Shown here one piece after another: positions 380-22,480 of a stretch of 22,480 nt of DNA; positions within the stretch are counted from its first letter, which is position 1; every line of letters begins with the position of its first letter. The DNA comes from an uncultured euryarchaeote. Lineage in GTDB: Archaea > Thermoplasmatota > Poseidoniia > Poseidoniales > Thalassarchaeaceae. Below the pieces are notes generated by a model. It ran no database searches. It saw only the letters and a list, made by a program, of their open reading frames with translations, and had not been told where the DNA came from. The stretch lies in the NCBI GenBank assembly GCA_937901365.1, contig CALCEF010000301.1, positions 1-22,480 on the forward strand. Reading direction: 5' to 3'. Made by a program: the position numbers and the translations under genes.

Positions 380-3300
380 TCATTCTTCCTCTTCATCGAC
401 GTCCTCCAATCCAGGAGGCATTGGGGGTGGAGTTTCATCTGGGAACTCAGATGGAGGCTCTGGCCAATCCCCCTCTTCGTCATCCCATTCCCCATCTGTT
501 TCTTCTTCATCTCGGAGCCACAGTAGTGCGATTCCGAAGCCTAAGGCTGTGCATACAAGAATGAGGAAACTGACAACCATTGGCCCATCACCAAATACAC
601 GTTCAAACCAACTTAGACTTGCTCCTTCTTCACGAATTGGTGGAAGGTCGATGGGTAAGCGAGATGATTCATTTTCATCGAGGACAATATAGACTTGTAA
701 ATCACCCTCCCGCCATGCTTCAAATTGGAAAGTTACGAGTGTTGCTTGCCGTGGGTCTAGGGTGATATTTTGATTACCCAAATCAATGATCTGAATATCC
801 ATATTCGGTCTGGTTTCCCAAGCCCAAAGTCCCACGGTTAGGTTCCCCTCCAAGTTTCCAAGGTTATTTATTCGAACATCTACACGAATATTTTGGCCAA
901 CTTCAGGAGCTGGTGGATGTACCCAAATAGAAAGTAGTTCAGGGGTAAAATGCATCACTTCTAATGCTGGAATACGTGGATACTCATCTGTTCCTGGGCC
1001 CTCCAGTGCATTGCCGGCCAAATCCTGACCCTCGACCCAAACCAGCAACAGGTCGCCGGGTTCCATTTGTGTGATTGGAGTGAAATCGACGTAAGTGGAG
1101 TAGACCCACGATGAATCTGAATGGACACCTAAACCCATGTCTACTTGGCCTTCAGAGCCAATAATATCAATTCCATCACGGCGATATTTCCAATGTAGTT
1201 CTAGAGTTTGATCGCCCATTCCGCCTTCGTCTTCAACTGTGAAGGTAACTAATTGATTGGTCAGATAATCGGATCGAAGTTGAATGAGGCTTGTTGATTG
1301 GAATTCAATCACTGGTGCCACATTATCGATTGCGACTTCAAATGCCATATCTGGCAAACTCGAATTGAAATCACTCTTGTTTGCTAGACCGAATTGAACC
1401 CAGTGTATGGGCCCGGGCCAATTTCCAATCTCAAAATCGATCGTGGCACTAAACCCAACACCAGCAGATTCGTGCAATTCTGAATAGGGGTTAGCACCCC
1501 CTTCAATCACGACTTGAATCATTGAAGAATGTGGTAAATGGATGGCAAGTGGTGCATTTGTTTCCCTGTGGGATACTGACGCTTGCAAATACATTGAATC
1601 TCCGGGTTGCAGGTTGAGTCTGTGTTCATATGCTGGCATTGAAGGCACAGTCAAATCTTGTACCTCATCGACATTCCATCTCAAACGATTATCCAATGCC
1701 CACGCTAAGTGTTCCAAATTTGTCGCACCGCTAGAAACCAATTCACCGTCCTCAATCATACGGAGTGATGGAATCCATGCCCCCTCCAACCAAGTTTCAG
1801 GGGCATGGTAATCGATGGCGAAGAAAATGGTGACACGGTAGGCGTCGTCTCCAAGTGATTCTGTTGCAATATCTAACGGAACGATTGACGTGTCACCGTC
1901 AGTAGTCAATAGTTCCTGTAGTGGATAATATTGGATTATTCCTTGTCCGTCTCCAGAGACATCTAATTCGATTAAATCGATAGAATTGAGGCCATTGCCA
2001 TCTTGGAAAGTGAATGAAAAAGAGTGTTCAATGCCTTGCAGTAAAGCCATGTCTTCATGGCGATCTAATGTAATCGAAGGCAAAGACACTTGGGTTGGCT
2101 GTTGAGTTTCAATCACCATTGTCGCCAAATCGCTGTCAAATCCAGGTCCACCCGCATCGGAGTAAGAAAATCCTGCATAGTCACCACCTTCTATGTAACA
2201 TGATATTCGATCCCCATCATCCATACCAGCAATGCTCACAGCTGGGAAATCAACTCGAATAGAGCCGCGAGGGACTCCCCCGAGGAATTGCATTGACTCG
2301 CCATACTCAATCTCATCAGGTATGCCATCTTGATCAGCATCATCGTAGGTTTCAAACCAGCATCTCAAATTCACGAAAGATTGCAATAATTCTTCATCAT
2401 GAACTTCAATCCAGAATGGAACGGTTCGGTCTGGAGACAAGATGTTGCCATCGGCCAATTGGCCCCCTTCAGGAGTATGAATCATCAATGGACCAAGGGT
2501 CGGTTGTTCCGAGTCAACCTGAATATCCACCGATAATGTGCCACCTGAGGCATCCTCCGCACCAAATGTAGACGTGCCTGATGGACCGATTTGCAAAATC
2601 CATGGTGATATTGATACATTTCCTTTCTCATTAGGCAAGACTATGCTTGCGTCAAAATAGCCTTGATTACTACTAGTACCAATCGATTGTAGCGTGCCGT
2701 TGTTCGTCTCAAGTTCCAAAGCGACGCGATAAGCATCTGCCGAGGGGTGCTGATTTGCTTGCCCCTCAAATCTCACGACTCCAGTAACATCGATGGTGGA
2801 ACCTGCTTTCGCGTGGAGCGGATATCTTGCATCCCACGTATTTGACAAAAGACGAGATTGCTCATCCCTGACTTCCCAAGAGATTACTTCCAAATCGTTC
2901 TCCATCGCTTGGTGATTTGAGCCCCCAATCATGGCATGCCCTGGACCAAGGGTGAATCCATCGGATTCTATTGCTTCAGCCAATACTCGAATCCAATCTT
3001 GGTCATCAAAGGCCCAATTGGTCCGGAAATGCCACTCGATTTCGTATGCATCGTGGCTCACAAACTGGACATTGGCCGTCTGAAGATACATCTGCTCTGA
3101 ACCGAAGATCTGCGTAGCAATTGGTTGATCTGATAAATCTTCAATATGGACTTCAATATCGATTCCTCCACTGGATTGTAGACGTAATATGGCCGCATCT
3201 AACAGGTCTCGATCAAAGAGATGAGTATGATGGCTTACAATTGTCACATTTTCATCAGGCACCATGGTTCCACCCGGTACAGATGTGACCTCGTTGACAA

Positions 3301-6300
3301 TTCGTTGAGCATGTGATATGGACCCTGAAAGGGCAACACCACCCTGATCCGCTTCTAGGATAATCGGTATCTGTAAATTACCAGAACTAATGATTGCTGA
3401 GCCAGTACCATTGATCGCGTCTGATTGGATTGATCGAAGTGCTTGTCCTAATCCTGTAATCGAATCTGTGGATTCCCATGAAATGGCCATACCGATGAAG
3501 TTGAAAAATTGTGAATCTGATTGATTTTGAATTGTGGCCGTTGGATATGGTAGAATTCGGATTTCTCCGGCTTCCATCGAATCATGTATTCCATTTGCCC
3601 AGGTCCATGAAATGTCAGCAGTTGCATAAAGGGTCATGCCTTGATCAAGTATTATTCCCGGTGAATTCCATTGCGTCCATGTTGTGTTTGAACTGTTGTT
3701 CTGATGGGGCCCATCATACCAACCAAAGGCGCCATGTGGTTCAAAATTCCATGACCAGTCCACAATTCCATCCCCTCCTACATCCAGTGCCCCATTGTGC
3801 ATTGGCGCACCAAGCTGACCTGTGAATGACGCATAGCGAACCCAACCACCCGGTTGAAGGTCGATTGTGGGGCGAATGTTGACTGCGGCATGAGGTAATG
3901 TGATACTCTGATTGTTCAACATGCCAGTTGCAAGTAAAGCCCCCTGTCCGTCCCACAATTGGAAAATGGCACCTGCTGATTCAGCGATAATAATCACATC
4001 TTCAATAGGGGCATCTCCAAAAGCAGCAGAACCTGAAATCCTCACAGTATTGAGTGTTGGATTGGAAAAATTATTCTCAATTTTATCATGAATTAATGAA
4101 GGAGGGATGTCCCACCCATTGGTTCCATCAGCACCATTCAGAATTCGAACCGCTCCCGAATGTAATCCTGCAATTCTGGGGGTTAACTGGTGATCAGTCG
4201 TACCAAATTCAACTTGAATACGATACGAATCATGATATGGAAGCACAGGGAATTCAGAATGCAGTGAGTTGGAGGATAAGCCAAATGGAACTTGTGTTCC
4301 ATTTGTGTCAATCAGTGATGCTCTTACCCATGTACCATTTGGTACATTAGCATCAATATCAATTGTAGGAGCAAAACCATCTGGATTTTCAAAAAGTAAG
4401 TCACTTGTCCATGAGCCATTGGATTCAAACCAATCGACAATGACTCCTACATCGTCAATGTACCACCCATCCATTTCGATGAATGGATCAGAGAAAAAGG
4501 AGAAGCGAAGCATGACATCTTGCCCCCCAAAACTGGACAAGTCACCTTCTACGTGGGTGAACGATTTGTTTGATGTGCACCCACCACCTTTCTGATTGGA
4601 GCCGTCCCACACCCATTTTTGGTAGAAAGGTGATTGTGCATTATTCCAATGCTGTACATCATAGAACAAAGGAATATCTTGACCATAGATTTGCCATGAG
4701 GTGCCATTGTCTACACTGGTGTAGAGTGCGCCACCATCCCATCCCGGTTCTGCACAAATGAAGTGGTCAAACGAAACCCTTGCACTGGCACCCAATGGAA
4801 TATGGTAGGACGGACTGATGAGGTGGGACCAGGAATTTGCAGCATGACGATCAGCAAGACCCATCGCTACACCGGTTTGGCCACTTGGCCAAGACGAGGG
4901 GCCCCAACCACTCGCATTGGATAGGGCGCCGAACTCCCAAGCCTGTCCATGCGGTGTTTGCACATGCCATCCATCCGCAATGAAAGGAGCGCCTTCGAAA
5001 GACCAAGTTGTCTCCCATGGACCATTGTTCCCCCAGTTGCTCAGATACTGCCATTGATCATAGATACCACCCGGCAATATTCCATGCCAATAACCGCCGT
5101 TTGTTGTGAAATTCTCAGACCACATGATATCGGTTGTACCGGAATGTGTTCGAGTTATACTCATGTCATCGATGAAGACCCCTTCTGGAGGATCCAAAGA
5201 ACCACCGTAACCTGACGATGGCATTTGGTCCGTTTCTACAATGATTCGGAGCATCAAACTACCATTGCTTGGAATTGTAAATGATGAAGGGAAGGGGTGT
5301 GAAACTTCCACCCAACCGCCAGAGTCTTCCATTATTGTCCGACCTGCAACAGTCAATCCATTGGGCCCAGGAATTCCCCCTACTGGAGACATACGATGCC
5401 AAGAAATATTGTCGCTAGATACTCTAACCTCAAATTTGTCCCACGAGCCGCCCTCCAAATCAAAGTCGGTCCAATACCGGACCATCCAAGCGCCAGATGT
5501 ACCCGAACTGGTGTTCAGTTGAATGGGGATGGTCAGATGTGCGTGAGCATCAGCTGCATATTCGCCAATCAGAGAGCCGTGGAACCATGACCCTGGCGTT
5601 TCACCATCATTGGATATCGTGACTTCGTCTACGTACCATCCTGGACGATCAACCGAACCTGTCGGGTCGGTCCAAACAACAAACCGATGTTGCATGGATG
5701 TCGCATTTGCAGAGTGTAGGTGGGTTATGTCGAATGTTGAATTGACCCAACCGCTTGCATCTGGTCCACCGAATACACCGAAGCCTGAACCATTTGCACC
5801 ATTCGGAACGGGGGCAGATGAGGAAATGTTCCAACTGTATCCACCCACCGGCTCTACGTAAATCCATGTGACACCACCATCGGTGCTGACTTCAGCCCAA
5901 GCACCGGATGATCCCACACTCTGATTTGTGTGATGTAAGTGATACCAGTGGTTGAAAGAAAATCTCCACTCATTGGCCAATGTAGGAACTGGACTGGATG
6001 GCGATGTGAGCCAAGCAAACGTTCCTGCAGGCAATGGATCTTCTGGGAGGGTCGCAGCGATGAGTGATCCATCGCTAGCAAGAGATGGGATGAGACCTCC
6101 TGCTGCCTGCCGTGCACTGTAGTTCATCGCAAAGGGTCCATTGAATTGAGAGGGTTCGGCCATTCTCCAAACGTTTGCTGCTCCGCCGACAGTGTATTGC
6201 TGAAATTGTAACGATAGAGATTCCAAATCATCAAGGCGACCGACTGTCTGATTGACACCGAGAGTCAATTCATGCTCAAACACTGAAATCGATGCGTCAT

Positions 6301-6574
6301 CAAATTCGCCATGACTAAAATTGAGTGAAGGACTGTCCGCAACCCAATGTTGACCAGTGCCCCCATCGCCATTGGCACCTGTTGAAACATTGACCCAGCC
6401 ATCCAAAATCGTTGAATTCACTGGAATTTCAAAAGAATCTTCTGTAATGTTGGATAGAGTACCGGTTCCATTTGGTTGAACAATAATCTCTGAATCACCG
6501 ATGTAGGGGCTCTCAATTGCTTGTGTAACCGGGGCGAACAACATCAACAGAACCAGTAGGATTGCGGTTCGCAT
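380..6574 (-). CDS. Giant secreted, membrane-anchored surface protein (2064 aa)
   Basis: The protein starts with a clear signal peptide (MRTAILLVLLMLFAPVTQA). It ends with a membrane segment at about residues 1999-2018 and a 43-residue, very acidic, Pro-rich tail, giving an outside-facing protein anchored at its C-terminus. The N-terminal third has three beta-rich modules, each closing with a Trp/Phe-Ile-Asp-Asp-type motif: GWYVDEVTI near 318, GVFIDDMSI near 469 and GWYIDDVGV near 707. That pattern is typical of MAM/immune-inhibitor-A-like jelly rolls. A DxDxDGxxD calcium-type loop (DADQDGIPD) lies near residue 1412. The region at about 1885-1985 resembles a CARDB Ig-like domain. N-glycosylation sequons are frequent. 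No protease or hydrolase active site was recognised. A role in adhesion, substrate capture or cell-surface structure is inferred. The ATG at 6574 is supported by the signal peptide directly after it. Confidence 0.85.
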   Translation of the reverse strand: MRTAILLVLLMLFAPVTQAIESPYIGDSEIIVQPNGTGTLSNITEDSFEIPVNSTILDGWVNVSTGANGDGGTGQHWVADSPSLNFSHGEFDDASISVFEHELTLGVNQTVGRLDDLESLSLQFQQYTVGGAANVWRMAEPSQFNGPFAMNYSARQAAGGLIPSLASDGSLIAATLPEDPLPAGTFAWLTSPSSPVPTLANEWRFSFNHWYHLHHTNQSVGSSGAWAEVSTDGGVTWIYVEPVGGYSWNISSSAPVPNGANGSGFGVFGGPDASGWVNSTFDITHLHSANATSMQHRFVVWTDPTGSVDRPGWYVDEVTISNDGETPGSWFHGSLIGEYAADAHAHLTIPIQLNTSSGTSGAWMVRYWTDFDLEGGSWDKFEVRVSSDNISWHRMSPVGGIPGPNGLTVAGRTIMEDSGGWVEVSHPFPSSFTIPSNGSLMLRIIVETDQMPSSGYGGSLDPPEGVFIDDMSITRTHSGTTDIMWSENFTTNGGYWHGILPGGIYDQWQYLSNWGNNGPWETTWSFEGAPFIADGWHVQTPHGQAWEFGALSNASGWGPSSWPSGQTGVAMGLADRHAANSWSHLISPSYHIPLGASARVSFDHFICAEPGWDGGALYTSVDNGTSWQIYGQDIPLFYDVQHWNNAQSPFYQKWVWDGSNQKGGGCTSNKSFTHVEGDLSSFGGQDVMLRFSFFSDPFIEMDGWYIDDVGVIVDWFESNGSWTSDLLFENPDGFAPTIDIDANVPNGTWVRASLIDTNGTQVPFGLSSNSLHSEFPVLPYHDSYRIQVEFGTTDHQLTPRIAGLHSGAVRILNGADGTNGWDIPPSLIHDKIENNFSNPTLNTVRISGSAAFGDAPIEDVIIIAESAGAIFQLWDGQGALLATGMLNNQSITLPHAAVNIRPTIDLQPGGWVRYASFTGQLGAPMHNGALDVGGDGIVDWSWNFEPHGAFGWYDGPHQNNSSNTTWTQWNSPGIILDQGMTLYATADISWTWANGIHDSMEAGEIRILPYPTATIQNQSDSQFFNFIGMAISWESTDSITGLGQALRSIQSDAINGTGSAIISSGNLQIPIILEADQGGVALSGSISHAQRIVNEVTSVPGGTMVPDENVTIVSHHTHLFDRDLLDAAILRLQSSGGIDIEVHIEDLSDQPIATQIFGSEQMYLQTANVQFVSHDAYEIEWHFRTNWAFDDQDWIRVLAEAIESDGFTLGPGHAMIGGSNHQAMENDLEVISWEVRDEQSRLLSNTWDARYPLHAKAGSTIDVTGVVRFEGQANQHPSADAYRVALELETNNGTLQSIGTSSNQGYFDASIVLPNEKGNVSISPWILQIGPSGTSTFGAEDASGGTLSVDIQVDSEQPTLGPLMIHTPEGGQLADGNILSPDRTVPFWIEVHDEELLQSFVNLRCWFETYDDADQDGIPDEIEYGESMQFLGGVPRGSIRVDFPAVSIAGMDDGDRISCYIEGGDYAGFSYSDAGGPGFDSDLATMVIETQQPTQVSLPSITLDRHEDMALLQGIEHSFSFTFQDGNGLNSIDLIELDVSGDGQGIIQYYPLQELLTTDGDTSIVPLDIATESLGDDAYRVTIFFAIDYHAPETWLEGAWIPSLRMIEDGELVSSGATNLEHLAWALDNRLRWNVDEVQDLTVPSMPAYEHRLNLQPGDSMYLQASVSHRETNAPLAIHLPHSSMIQVVIEGGANPYSELHESAGVGFSATIDFEIGNWPGPIHWVQFGLANKSDFNSSLPDMAFEVAIDNVAPVIEFQSTSLIQLRSDYLTNQLVTFTVEDEGGMGDQTLELHWKYRRDGIDIIGSEGQVDMGLGVHSDSSWVYSTYVDFTPITQMEPGDLLLVWVEGQDLAGNALEGPGTDEYPRIPALEVMHFTPELLSIWVHPPAPEVGQNIRVDVRINNLGNLEGNLTVGLWAWETRPNMDIQIIDLGNQNITLDPRQATLVTFQFEAWREGDLQVYIVLDENESSRLPIDLPPIREEGASLSWFERVFGDGPMVVSFLILVCTALGFGIALLWLRDEEETDGEWDDEEGDWPEPPSEFPDETPPPMPPGLEDVDEEEE

Positions 6575-19206: not shown

Positions 19207-20127
19207 GTGAATCCAGCCTGCGACTTTCAGCAAGCACTGTTTGGATTCTGGTATCATGGAACCAAACAACCACCAATCATGGAACATGGCTGGCCAAATG
19301 TCTACTTCAAAATCACCACCAGCGGCTATTGCATGTTCACCAACGATTCGGCTGTCATCGAGTAATATTTCTTGCTCACCCACCAATATCAAAGTACGAG
19401 GCAGGCCCTTGAAATCACCAAAGATTGGAGACACGTAAGGATTCTTTTTGTCGGCAGCGGTAGGTGCATAATGTCCAGCACAAGTGATTGCCATTTTTTG
19501 AGACAACATCGGATCTGCTTTGGCCTTGGTCACGTAGCTTTCCGATTCGCATGTTAAATTCGTCCATGGAGAAAACAAAACTGCACCGTCAGGAAGTCGA
19601 TGTCCTTCATCACGGAGGCGCATCATGAGTGCAAGACTCAGCCCCCCTCCTGCAGAATCTCCACTGAGGATTAGTTTTGATTTGGGGTTGGTTTCTACGA
19701 TGTCTAACCAAGCGGCAAGTGCATCGTCAATCGCGCCAGGATAGGGATTTTCAGGTGCCAATCGATAATCGATGGAATAACAAATGCTGCCTGTAACCTT
19801 GGCAAGATTTCTGAGGCCAATTCGATGTGTGGTCAGCGAAGATCCAATGCAGTATCCACCTCCATGTAGATACACGATTTTCGTGTCAGGGTTGGATTGC
19901 TTCACCGGGGTAAAACTGACACCGGGTACGCCACCGAATGTGGAGCGTTGGGTTTTCACAGCAAAAGAAAGAGTTGGTTTTGAGAAAACCCAAGTCGGTG
20001 GGTGTATGAGCCAACGAACGATTTTGGGTGAGAGAGGGATGAATTTAGACAGCGATTTGTTGATTCGAAGGGGGATTGAAATCAGACGGCTGCGTAGACT
20101 CAATGACTCACCCTGACCAATGCTCAC
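19195..20127 (-). CDS. Alpha/beta hydrolase, hormone-sensitive-lipase-like esterase
   Basis: The 310-residue protein has the HSL-family oxyanion motif HGGGYCIG (88-95), the nucleophile Ser158 in LSGDSAGG, a DYRLAPENPYP segment and the catalytic His283 in FHDWW. The acid is E253 or D257 in GEQEILLDDS; I cannot decide which. Family members hydrolyse short to medium acyl esters. There is no signal peptide; a basic, hydrophobic N-terminal cap is present. The start is uncertain: GTG 20127 overlaps the preceding gene by 20 bases, while an in-frame TTG at 20103 follows GGTGAG and avoids the overlap. It is the last gene of the parA run and overlaps the convergent aminopeptidase gene by 12 bases. Confidence 0.88.
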   Translation of the reverse strand: MSIGQGESLSLRSRLISIPLRINKSLSKFIPLSPKIVRWLIHPPTWVFSKPTLSFAVKTQRSTFGGVPGVSFTPVKQSNPDTKIVYLHGGGYCIGSSLTTHRIGLRNLAKVTGSICYSIDYRLAPENPYPGAIDDALAAWLDIVETNPKSKLILSGDSAGGGLSLALMMRLRDEGHRLPDGAVLFSPWTNLTCESESYVTKAKADPMLSQKMAITCAGHYAPTAADKKNPYVSPIFGDFKGLPRTLILVGEQEILLDDSRIVGEHAIAAGGDFEVDIWPAMFHDWWLFGSMIPESKQCLLKVAGWIHSGQ

Positions 20128-20521
20128 ACAGACGTTCCAAGAGACGCCGTGCGGGAATCCCCCATTGGACGATTGTGACGGTCGCTTCGCTCCGATCAGC
20201 GGCTAATTTGCCTTCTTCAAAACCAGGTGCGCCCAAATCGGAAGGGACGAGGGGGAGTTTGTCACCACCACTAAGCACAGTAATTTGAACGCCGTTTGAC
20301 TTGGCCTCTTTCGATAACAATTCTGTATCTTGATGACCTTCTGATTGCAACAACCTTGCAATCGCTTCCATCAATTGCTCGACCGTATCTGTACCGGTGC
20401 CAGGGGGCAACCCTTCTGAGTCACCAATCGAGGGGCCGTAGGCATCAAGAAAAGGTAAATCCTGGTCATGCTGGGCCAATAAATCATCGAGACCCCGGCC
20501 CAATACGCGCTTTTTCGACAT
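20108..20521 (-). CDS. Small ParA-linked protein with a ParB-type N-terminal peptide
   Basis: The 137-residue product begins MSKKRVLGRGLDDLLAQ. This matches the N-terminal LGRGLxALL peptide that chromosomal ParB/Spo0J proteins use to contact ParA and stimulate its ATPase. The rest does not look like ParB: there is no room for the CTPase domain plus HTH plus dimer domain (ParB is usually about 280 residues), and no GERR-type motif is present. Residues about 45-65 form a likely helix (VEQLMEAIARLLQSEG). Residues 80-137 alternate strands and a final helix (VQITVLSGG, ATVTIVQWG, ARRLLERLCEHW). ATG 20521 follows the parA stop by 5 bases and is preceded by GGAG, so the two are co-translated. A ParA partner or adaptor is inferred; what it attaches to is unknown. 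Confidence 0.75.
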   Translation of the reverse strand: MSKKRVLGRGLDDLLAQHDQDLPFLDAYGPSIGDSEGLPPGTGTDTVEQLMEAIARLLQSEGHQDTELLSKEAKSNGVQITVLSGGDKLPLVPSDLGAPGFEEGKLAADRSEATVTIVQWGIPARRLLERLCEHWSG

Positions 20522-20526
20522 GAGGA

Positions 20527-21456
20527 TTACTCCAAGGTGAGGTTCCACCGTTGAGCCAGATTGGCCGCGAGTTCGCGATAATCCTTCCCACCATTCGATT
20601 CTGGTGCATGAATGTGGATTGGAATACCCTCACTGGGCGCCTCAGCGAGTTTGATGTTCCGTCGAATTGGTGGTTCCACAATCAAATCACCAAATGTTTC
20701 CTTCAATTGGCCCAATACTTGGCTGTTCAGTAACGTCGGAGCATGCATTGTCATCATCACTCCATCAAATCCTAAGTTTGGATTCAGACGGCGGCGAACC
20801 TCTCGGATTGTGGCTGACAACATTGCAACACCTTCCAAGGCGAAAAACTCGGTTTGGACCGGTACGAGGACCGCATCGCTTGCAACCAAGGCATTGATGG
20901 TGACCAAACCCAAACTTGGGGCTGTATCGAGGAGGATGAGGTCGTAGTGAGGTAGTAGTGATTCGAGACCTTCTGCCAAACAACGCTCACGGCCAAGCCG
21001 AGTGGAGAGTTCTTGCTCAAGGCCAACCAAAGATCGCTCGCCAACCACTAGATGGAGGCCAGGTACTGCGGTTGCATGACGACATGCCGCAGCTTGTTCG
21101 GGCTCTGTGAACAGTGTACGAGTCGTGTGCATGACTCTACTTTTGTCAATCCCCAGTCCGGTCGCACAATTTCCTTGCTGATCGCAATCTACGACCAATA
21201 CTCGAACACCATGCAACGCGAGATGGGTGGCGACGTTGATGACGGTGGTTGTCTTTCCAACGCCACCTTTCTGATTCATGATTGTGACAACTCGACCTCT
21301 ATTTGCAGGGGTTGGGCCAGCGACGGGTAGATCGATTTCAGCACGAGGTTCTGCAGAACTCAAGGGGTCTGAATCTGGAGATTCAATCTCCTCTTCGGTG
21401 AATTCAACAACCAAAGGTGCTGCAACCGCTTCCGGCAGCACATCGTCTTCATCCAT
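20527..21456 (-). CDS. parA: ParA/Soj-type partition ATPase
   Basis: The 309-residue protein has the deviant Walker A KGGVGKTT (63-70), the A' motif DCDQQGN (90-96) and Walker B LLDTAPSLG (175-183), plus the family's VPVQTEFFALEG and PIRRNIKLAEAPSEG segments near the C-terminus. ParA ATPases dimerise on DNA with ATP and move or space a partner-bound cargo. Unusually, about 50 acidic, Pro-rich residues precede the ATPase domain. ATG 21456 (MDEDDVLPEA) is chosen; an in-frame ATG at 21468 adds four residues and fits the promoter about equally well. The gene is followed after 5 bases by the small ParB-peptide gene, as parA is followed by parB in bacteria. Chromosome, plasmid or protein-complex positioning cannot be told apart from sequence. 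Confidence 0.92.
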   Translation of the reverse strand: MDEDDVLPEAVAAPLVVEFTEEEIESPDSDPLSSAEPRAEIDLPVAGPTPANRGRVVTIMNQKGGVGKTTTVINVATHLALHGVRVLVVDCDQQGNCATGLGIDKSRVMHTTRTLFTEPEQAAACRHATAVPGLHLVVGERSLVGLEQELSTRLGRERCLAEGLESLLPHYDLILLDTAPSLGLVTINALVASDAVLVPVQTEFFALEGVAMLSATIREVRRRLNPNLGFDGVMMTMHAPTLLNSQVLGQLKETFGDLIVEPPIRRNIKLAEAPSEGIPIHIHAPESNGGKDYRELAANLAQRWNLTLE

Positions 21457-21539: not shown

Positions 21540-22480
21540 TCATACTGGGCTCGAAGCAAGAATCCAACCTGCCATACGTCCGGTTTCTGCGTCCATTCCT
21601 ACCCGCAGACTATGCTCAGTGTTGCCCGATGTCCATGTACGTTCGAGATAGATTGTCACTTTTCCACCCATGAGATCAAACTCGTCTAACCATTCAGATA
21701 CCGCATTTTCTTCAGGTACGACAAGAGCGTACCCGATTTGAACATCGTCGCGAATATTTCCATTAGTTGTGACTTGAGGGTGTAAATCCGGATAGTATGT
21801 GGATGAAACCATACGGCTCTCTAGTGAAGACAACTTGTGGGTTTGTGGGATTTGATCTCGCGAGTGTTCCGGCTTGTCATCACCACTCAACTGGCCATCA
21901 CCGGAATTCAAACAGTTTTCACCACCTGGCCAAGTAACCCTAACCCAACCTGCTTCTACAGAACTAACCCACGATAGGTTCCATACTGGAGAACTGCCGG
22001 TTCGATCATCCTTGGCGGCGAAGACATAACCATCACCATTCAGGGCAGTATTTGCAGAACCAAAGGCTTCTGCATCCGTCATCACACAAGCAACGGCTTG
22101 CTCAAGATTGAATCTTGTTGAGGAATTATCCGGCATGTGCTTGCCCCAAGAGACACGTTCTGATGTCGAGGGTTTGTTGTCGGAACGATCAGGGCGAGTG
22201 GCGTAGTATGTCTGCCAATCCAACAATTCATTCCCACGCTTGAAAGAGGTCTGCTCCAATGTGTATCTTACAACAAACTCTCCTTCAGGGAAAGTGAGGT
22301 CAATCGCTTCAGATTCCGTAAATGAACAACCCGATTCAGTTTTTGATTTGTCAATCAGCACATCGACGACTTGTTTGGCAGCCAATGGTTGTCCAGGAAT
22401 AGCCCACAGAATCATTTGTGCGTGTCCCAAACATTCTCCGATTTTGATGTGCTCCATTCTAATTTGAATCGCATCTTGGC
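21540..22480 (-). CDS. Unknown protein, C-terminal part (runs off right edge)
   Basis: The frame is open from the right edge to the TGA at 21540. An internal ATG at 22457 would give 305 residues, but in-frame codons without a stop continue to 22480 and no ribosome-binding site precedes that ATG, so the true start is probably outside. The visible 313 residues are soluble-looking, with many Trp and acidic/Ser-rich loops and few Cys (GECLGHAQM, SGCSF, VACVM, ENCLN). The end, VTIYLERTWTSGNTEHSLRV then GMDAETGRMAGWILAS, is beta-rich. Composition resembles the secreted proteins in this window, so an extracellular protein is plausible. I do not recognise a family. It lies 83 bases upstream of parA, which has its own TATA box. 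Confidence 0.7.
   Translation of the reverse strand, partial: QDAIQIRMEHIKIGECLGHAQMILWAIPGQPLAAKQVVDVLIDKSKTESGCSFTESEAIDLTFPEGEFVVRYTLEQTSFKRGNELLDWQTYYATRPDRSDNKPSTSERVSWGKHMPDNSSTRFNLEQAVACVMTDAEAFGSANTALNGDGYVFAAKDDRTGSSPVWNLSWVSSVEAGWVRVTWPGGENCLNSGDGQLSGDDKPEHSRDQIPQTHKLSSLESRMVSSTYYPDLHPQVTTNGNIRDDVQIGYALVVPEENAVSEWLDEFDLMGGKVTIYLERTWTSGNTEHSLRVGMDAETGRMAGWILASSPV

Follow-up and report, generated by a model that had tools for sequence, protein, structure and literature searches.

In the bacterial ParABS systems (Soj/Spo0J), ParA dimers bind DNA, and a peptide of ParB triggers ATP hydrolysis jointly with DNA; the peptide alone is enough for binding and, with DNA, for stimulation in vitro (PMC12462528; published work is cited here by PubMed Central number and from excerpts). 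A survey gives the pattern of the ParA-binding motif as (L/F/I)G(K/R)G(L/F/I) and describes chromosomal ParABS as generally absent from archaea (PMC12704722), and the idea that N-terminal activating stretches are grafted on varied bodies has been published (PMC7993993, PMC10241942). Here we analyze a 22,480-nucleotide stretch of DNA (the window; contig C301) from an uncultured euryarchaeote of the Thalassarchaeaceae, order Poseidoniales, whose genome is 81% complete in 376 contigs. The window encodes a Soj-like ATPase, ParA1, followed by a small protein, MINI, that opens with a ParB-type peptide and has no detectable ParB body; in sister genera the same position beside ParA1 is occupied by an EamA-type transporter that often carries the same peptide. 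The arrangement suggests that this motor has a cargo at the cell membrane and not a chromosome marked by ParB.

On the minus strand the gene order is a membrane protein with a SAP domain (its C-terminal part), parA1 and MINI, as read from open reading frame (ORF) coordinates and translations. The first-pass annotation had placed a 137-residue gene 5 bases beyond parA, and the ORFs give the same gap and coordinates. The features are:

20108..20521, minus strand: MINI partner, 137 amino acids (aa), with a ParB-like predicted ParA-binding peptide and a non-ParB domain (ORF, Pfam, alignment, profile comparison).
20477..20503, minus strand: predicted ParA-binding motif L-G-R-G-L-D-D-L-L, MINI residues 7-15 (sequence, published motif definition, bacterial control).
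20435..20521, minus strand: conserved N-terminal segment of MINI, residues 1-29, ending DLPFLDAYG (two alignments; AlphaFold2 predicted local distance difference test, pLDDT, about 50 for residues 1-30).
20111..20392, minus strand: C-terminal domain of MINI, residues 44-137, predicted a-b-b-(a)-b-b-a (AlphaFold2).
20527..21456, minus strand: parA1, Soj-like ATPase, 309 aa, with an acidic N-terminal extension of ~50 residues (ORF, Pfam, alignment).
21250..21270, minus strand: deviant Walker A KGGVGKT of ParA1, residues 63-69 (sequence, alignment to Thermus Soj).
21540..22480, minus strand: SAP-domain membrane protein, C-terminal part, cut by the contig end (match to relative L074).

ParA1 scores 175 bits against PF13614 (Pfam), and its best solved match is Thermus Soj (1wcv, E 5e-52, over residues 55-302). 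The deviant Walker A and Soj-like sequence across the whole ATPase domain place it with ParA/Soj. An R-R-N-I-(K/R)-L-A-E-A-P-S stretch (R-N-x-x-L-A-E-A-P-S) is largely conserved. ATP-dependent dimerisation and non-specific DNA binding are predicted for ParA1 as a member of this family.

MINI begins with MSKKRVLGRGLDDLL..., in which LGRGL (residues 7-11) fits the survey pattern for ParB/Spo0J and residues 7-15 fit the motif of Myxococcus ParB, where L11, R13, L15, L18 and I19 are important for ParA binding or activation (PMC12462528). In a bacterial control, the pattern lies within the N-terminal 60 residues of the ORF following parA in 65/79 loci (7/79 have no such ORF). Among 891 non-redundant archaeal ORFs of at least 100 aa, 31 have a looser form of the motif in their first 60 residues and 30 of these are the gene after parA; the loci were chosen for parA or its partners, which over-represents the family, and the window’s own VLGRGL form lies outside the looser pattern. 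Within the window’s genus, the ratio of nonsynonymous to synonymous polymorphism (pN/pS) is 0.024 (24 codons from the motif onward, 55 pairs, 11/16 loci), indicating strong purifying selection. A profile comparison of MINI with 8 bacterial ParBs (hhalign) aligns residues 2-21 alone, which is the peptide (P 0.0064, probability 5.9%).

The fit to the published pattern, the count of motif-bearing ORFs in the slot after parA and the purifying selection together make it unlikely that the peptide is a product of chance, and they back the first-pass annotation, which had recognized the N-terminal peptide of ParB in this gene from its opening residues. Judged from sequence, the peptide very probably binds ParA1. 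That the GLGRGL start is convergent or accidental, and the gene pair an ordinary operon whose products make no contact, is a reading to which we give very little credence: the motif is short and the hhalign probability low, but nearly all archaeal ORFs with the motif follow parA, two unrelated bodies bear it (below), and it is under selection.

Beyond the peptide, MINI does not resemble ParB. It matched no Pfam or NCBIfam family above cut-off and no PDB entry by sequence, and neither Pfam nor the comparison with the 8 ParBs revealed a ParB/Srx CTPase fold with a helix-turn-helix body. A ParB_N search of the window’s own, 81% complete genome gave no match, and a scan of it for parS-like 16-mers with ≤2 mismatches gave 0 sites (reversed control, 1). 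Across 39 genomes there are 24 parS-like sites in 16 genomes, and the reversed control gives 12 sites in 9; every listed site has 2 mismatches, and no genome has more than 3. The scan used the bacterial consensus alone, and some of the genomes are incomplete. The first-pass annotation had held that the ParB body is absent, which agrees with these searches; a degenerate ParB core, which would have refuted its reading, finds no support in the C-terminal part of MINI, which does not align with one. As a separate observation, ParB_N weakly matches short ORFs of 130-215 aa in several relatives (L062-L069, L071), on contigs other than those of the listed ParA matches; these recall stand-alone ParB-fold enzymes.

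AlphaFold2 (58 sequences) models MINI residues 44-137 with high confidence as helix-strand-strand-short helix-strand-strand-helix, mean pLDDT being 89-97 per ten-residue block from residue 51 on, while the first 43 residues have low confidence. Fold searches with this domain returned no significant match; a match to a DNA-binding domain was weak. In the window the domain is acidic (9 K/R vs. 15 D/E), and the opposite holds in 2/7 relatives. The suggestion in the first-pass annotation of an unrecognized DNA-binding fold is not favored by the acidic charge in the window and the weakness of the DNA-binding-domain match. Chromosome segregation proper, in which the C-terminal domain of MINI would bind DNA and ParA1-MINI would be a pared-down ParABS whose centromere protein is new, seems to us improbable.

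ParA1 matches of ortholog strength are present in 38/59 relatives and 56/145 class genomes, 27 of them shared, which gives 67 different genomes. In all 67, the slot downstream of ParA1 on the same strand holds one of two proteins, MINI (30 genomes) or an EamA-type transporter (37 genomes; Pfam score 86.9 bits). Between the parA1 stop and the start of the conserved body lie 122-201 bases in the case of MINI and 6-154 in that of EamA. Twenty of the 37 EamA proteins open with the peptide (e.g., MAKGGLGRGLDEIYSKTEGPDLSSF), distributed by genus as 7/7 in g11, 6/6 in g6, 2/2 in g5, 4/7 in g3, 1/4 in g9, 0/8 in g8 and 0/3 in g10. The strict published form of the motif is found in 22/30 MINI and 17/37 EamA proteins. 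For the EamA peptide codons, pN/pS is 0.158 in g11 (20 codons; 6/7 genomes, excluding the one that contains X) and 0.126 in g6 (9 codons, 6/6 genomes). The first-pass annotation had argued that the peptide was moved onto a different C-terminal module beside an archaeal parA, and the second, unrelated body that shares it in sister genera strengthens that view.

The 145 class genomes include 77 with MINI and 46 with EamA (E 1e-40), and none has both; at E 1e-10 one of the 59 relatives (G057) has MINI together with a distant, 28% EamA relative. Nine EamA relatives, 43-49% identical, occur in family f3, whose genomes gave no ParA1 match, and the 3 of 9 that were read have no peptide. At ParA1 residue 184, in the Walker-B-proximal loop, the EamA genomes have L in 20/20 cases with the peptide and I in 12/17 without it.

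The history of the exchange was read from ParA1 trees. In a tree of 57 ParA1 rows (10 of 16 rows from genus g1 were left out), rooted on a second ParA-family protein, ParA2, all ParA1 rows form one clade (support 100), and the EamA rows form one clade (Shimodaira-Hasegawa-like approximate likelihood ratio test, SH-aLRT, 99) nested among the MINI rows. One EamA origin is also recovered by another tree, which includes 8 MINI rows and omits the Walker-B loop (99/95; 98% of 200 bootstrap trees). Because the EamA clade is single and nested among MINI rows, MINI is the older partner and its body was replaced once, with the peptide either kept or transferred. The peptide changes four times within the EamA clade, and was probably lost several times there after the swap. 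The nearest sampled outgroup of ParA1 consists of bacterial ParAs, among which its place is unsettled, with long-branch warnings, and the sampling excluded other archaeal ParAs; for these reasons we infer its capture from bacteria with caution.

The SAP gene lies directly upstream of parA1 in 31/33 ParA1 loci that were read (a contig end truncates the remaining 2), and it adjoins MINI in 10/14 readable loci where ParA1 is gone. The window ORF at 21540-22457 matches residues 394-695 of the L074 SAP protein (35%); the window copy is cut before the SAP domain, so that the SAP domain and membrane span described here are those of relatives and fall outside the window. PF02037 is above cut-off in two of these relatives (41.5 and 33.4 bits vs. 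a cut-off of 23.9) and is listed for 99/102 full or partial SAP-protein relatives. Hydropathy indicates one membrane span (111-129). In the SAP protein, the acidic linker (P0195 residues 60-75; L074:3840-5933) contains a conserved EAEV(F/L)EAEI-like stretch that occurs more than once in some relatives. A hydrophobic-acidic V-x-F-x-E-E-E stretch lies at residues 16-24 of ParA1 (window 21385-21411), within its acidic N-terminal extension. The two stretches resemble each other and are possible docking motifs.

Fusion of the peptide to EamA and linkage of the SAP gene lead us to favor a ParA-type positioning system of Poseidoniales with a membrane-bound cargo (probability roughly 0.5); whether the cargo itself sits at the membrane we put at even odds. 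ParA1-ATP dimers would bind the nucleoid irrespective of sequence. The partner’s peptide would enter a pocket at the edge of the ParA1 dimer and, with DNA, trigger ATP hydrolysis and release, while the partner’s body would couple ParA1 to a cargo bound to the membrane. The likeliest cargo is the SAP protein, whose cytosolic SAP domain may touch DNA and whose outer part resembles half-open barrels. The outcome would be a nucleoid-to-membrane contact, moving or regularly spaced. In the EamA clade a soluble adaptor would be unnecessary, since the peptide sits on the membrane protein itself. The cargo other than a parS-bound chromosome proposed in the first-pass annotation fits a peptide carried on two unrelated bodies. 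Neither the upstream SAP protein, truncated in the window, nor the EamA fusions were visible to that annotation. A more specific scenario, which we hold tentatively and at somewhat less than even odds, is that a captured bacterial-type ParA, with neither ParB nor parS, came to depend on the ParB peptide alone as its driver, initially on a small adaptor to the membrane-anchored, DNA-binding SAP protein and later on a multi-span transporter, so that ParA gradients would position membrane complexes or tether the chromosome to the membrane.

As far as searched, the MINI family is found in Poseidoniales alone (773 proteins at E 0.01 by profile, 120 matches listed). Named homologs are filed under Candidatus Thalassarchaeaceae, Poseidoniales, Poseidonia or, broadly, Euryarchaeota and Thermoplasmatota; a single one is assigned to Rickettsiales. 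Besides the class genomes counted above, 24/145 phylum genomes have MINI, and all matches are in families f1 and f2, the latter inferred to be Poseidoniaceae-like.

Several observations weigh against a ParA1-driven positioning system. In f2, 58/65 genomes with MINI show no ParA1, which implies that MINI has a role apart from it, and MINI there typically starts with an eroded motif (RGLDHLM or RDLDHLM). We compared 37 MINI loci, picked to cover genera (fragment G138 was excluded): 16/19 loci with ParA1 have an intact motif vs. 2/18 without it, the other 16/18 having a degenerate one. The tree permits 2-3 independent motif-ParA1 comparisons, however, and these do not support the association; there are counterexamples in g16, g19 and g20, including an LSKGF form without ParA1 (g20) and a TGRGL form with it (g19). 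The expectation that homologs keep both the peptide and the linkage to parA holds in the window’s family and fails in most f2 genomes. Seventeen of the 37 EamA proteins have no peptide while ParA1 stays, as in the named archaeal record L124 (ParA1 followed by EamA without the peptide), so that the peptide must be dispensable or replaced there. Six genomes of EamA genera, all 79-87% complete, have neither ParA1 nor EamA, and in genus g12 MINI lies apart from the SAP gene in 4/4 loci read. That the SAP domain binds DNA and that the N-terminus of EamA is cytosolic are assumptions.

Some of these observations favor a different account, in which MINI works mainly with the SAP membrane protein, regulation by ParA1 is optional and the ParB peptide is a remnant being lost. 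We regard this as rather unlikely, though the strongest of the alternatives. MINI and the SAP gene do persist without ParA1 in many f2 genomes, and the four peptide changes in the EamA clade can be read as losses; against this, the peptide is under purifying selection on MINI in the window’s genus and on EamA in g6 and g11 (pN/pS values above), and its presence on both bodies argues that it was retained through the swap.

Other features of these genomes are noted for completeness. ParA2 (about 40% identical) is present in 55/59 relatives (absent from G005, G017, G023 and G033). Downstream sequence could be read at 5 loci, a sixth being truncated; in 4/5 of them ParA2 precedes an ORF of 84-91 aa with a ribbon-helix-helix-like start (MTSVSVS.EVRRQLN or close). 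SegB is a ribbon-helix-helix protein, and these pairs (L088:5897-6859, minus strand; L090, L110 and L111; not L091) are SegAB-like. In many MINI loci (L087, L092, L095, L096, L100, L105, L108, L246-L248) the SAP gene is preceded by a gene for a membrane protein of 330-420 aa, TM360, for which BLAST gave no match in EamA loci. A Xer-type tyrosine recombinase gene and a RimK-like ATP-grasp gene, divergent and labeled by the look of their sequences, lie beside the locus in many genomes read (L073:1511-3704 and equivalents); in the EamA locus L074 the SAP gene is 47 bases from the divergent RimK-like gene. In the window, a 2064-residue ORF (380-6574, minus strand) appears to be secreted and has a C-terminal hydrophobic stretch and an acidic tail.

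The first-pass annotation knew of no described archaeal system with this layout, and we likewise found no description of the Poseidoniales ParA1-MINI/EamA layout in the open-licence PubMed Central literature; on that literature, both the archaeal layout and the natural body swap appear to be new. Surveys based on the ParB fold would miss the Poseidoniales system because the peptide alone is kept. The locus is a natural experiment for the proposal of PMC7993993, with two bodies exchanging in one slot beside one ParA and the peptide changing inside a clade, and it raises the question of what surface-ocean archaea position at their membrane.

The system shares with bacterial ParABS (Soj/Spo0J) a Soj-type ParA, a partner start of the form LGRGLxxL(L/I) (PMC12462528) and the parA-partner gene order; it differs in that the archaeal partner shows no ParB body, parS is not apparent by the bacterial consensus and the body is swapped between lineages. 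Like archaeal SegAB (PMC12284271), it has a ParA-family ATPase in a two-gene unit, but SegB is a DNA-binding partner, and here it is ParA2, not ParA1, that adjoins a ribbon-helix-helix-like ORF. In architecture it also fits McdAB, PpfA-TlpT and PomXYZ, ParA/MinD systems that position cargo with partners other than ParB and in which a short N-terminal activating stretch is placed on an unrelated interaction body (PMC7993993, PMC10241942). Those systems are bacterial, whereas in Poseidoniales the peptide is of the ParB type and one of the two bodies that carry it is a multi-span transporter.
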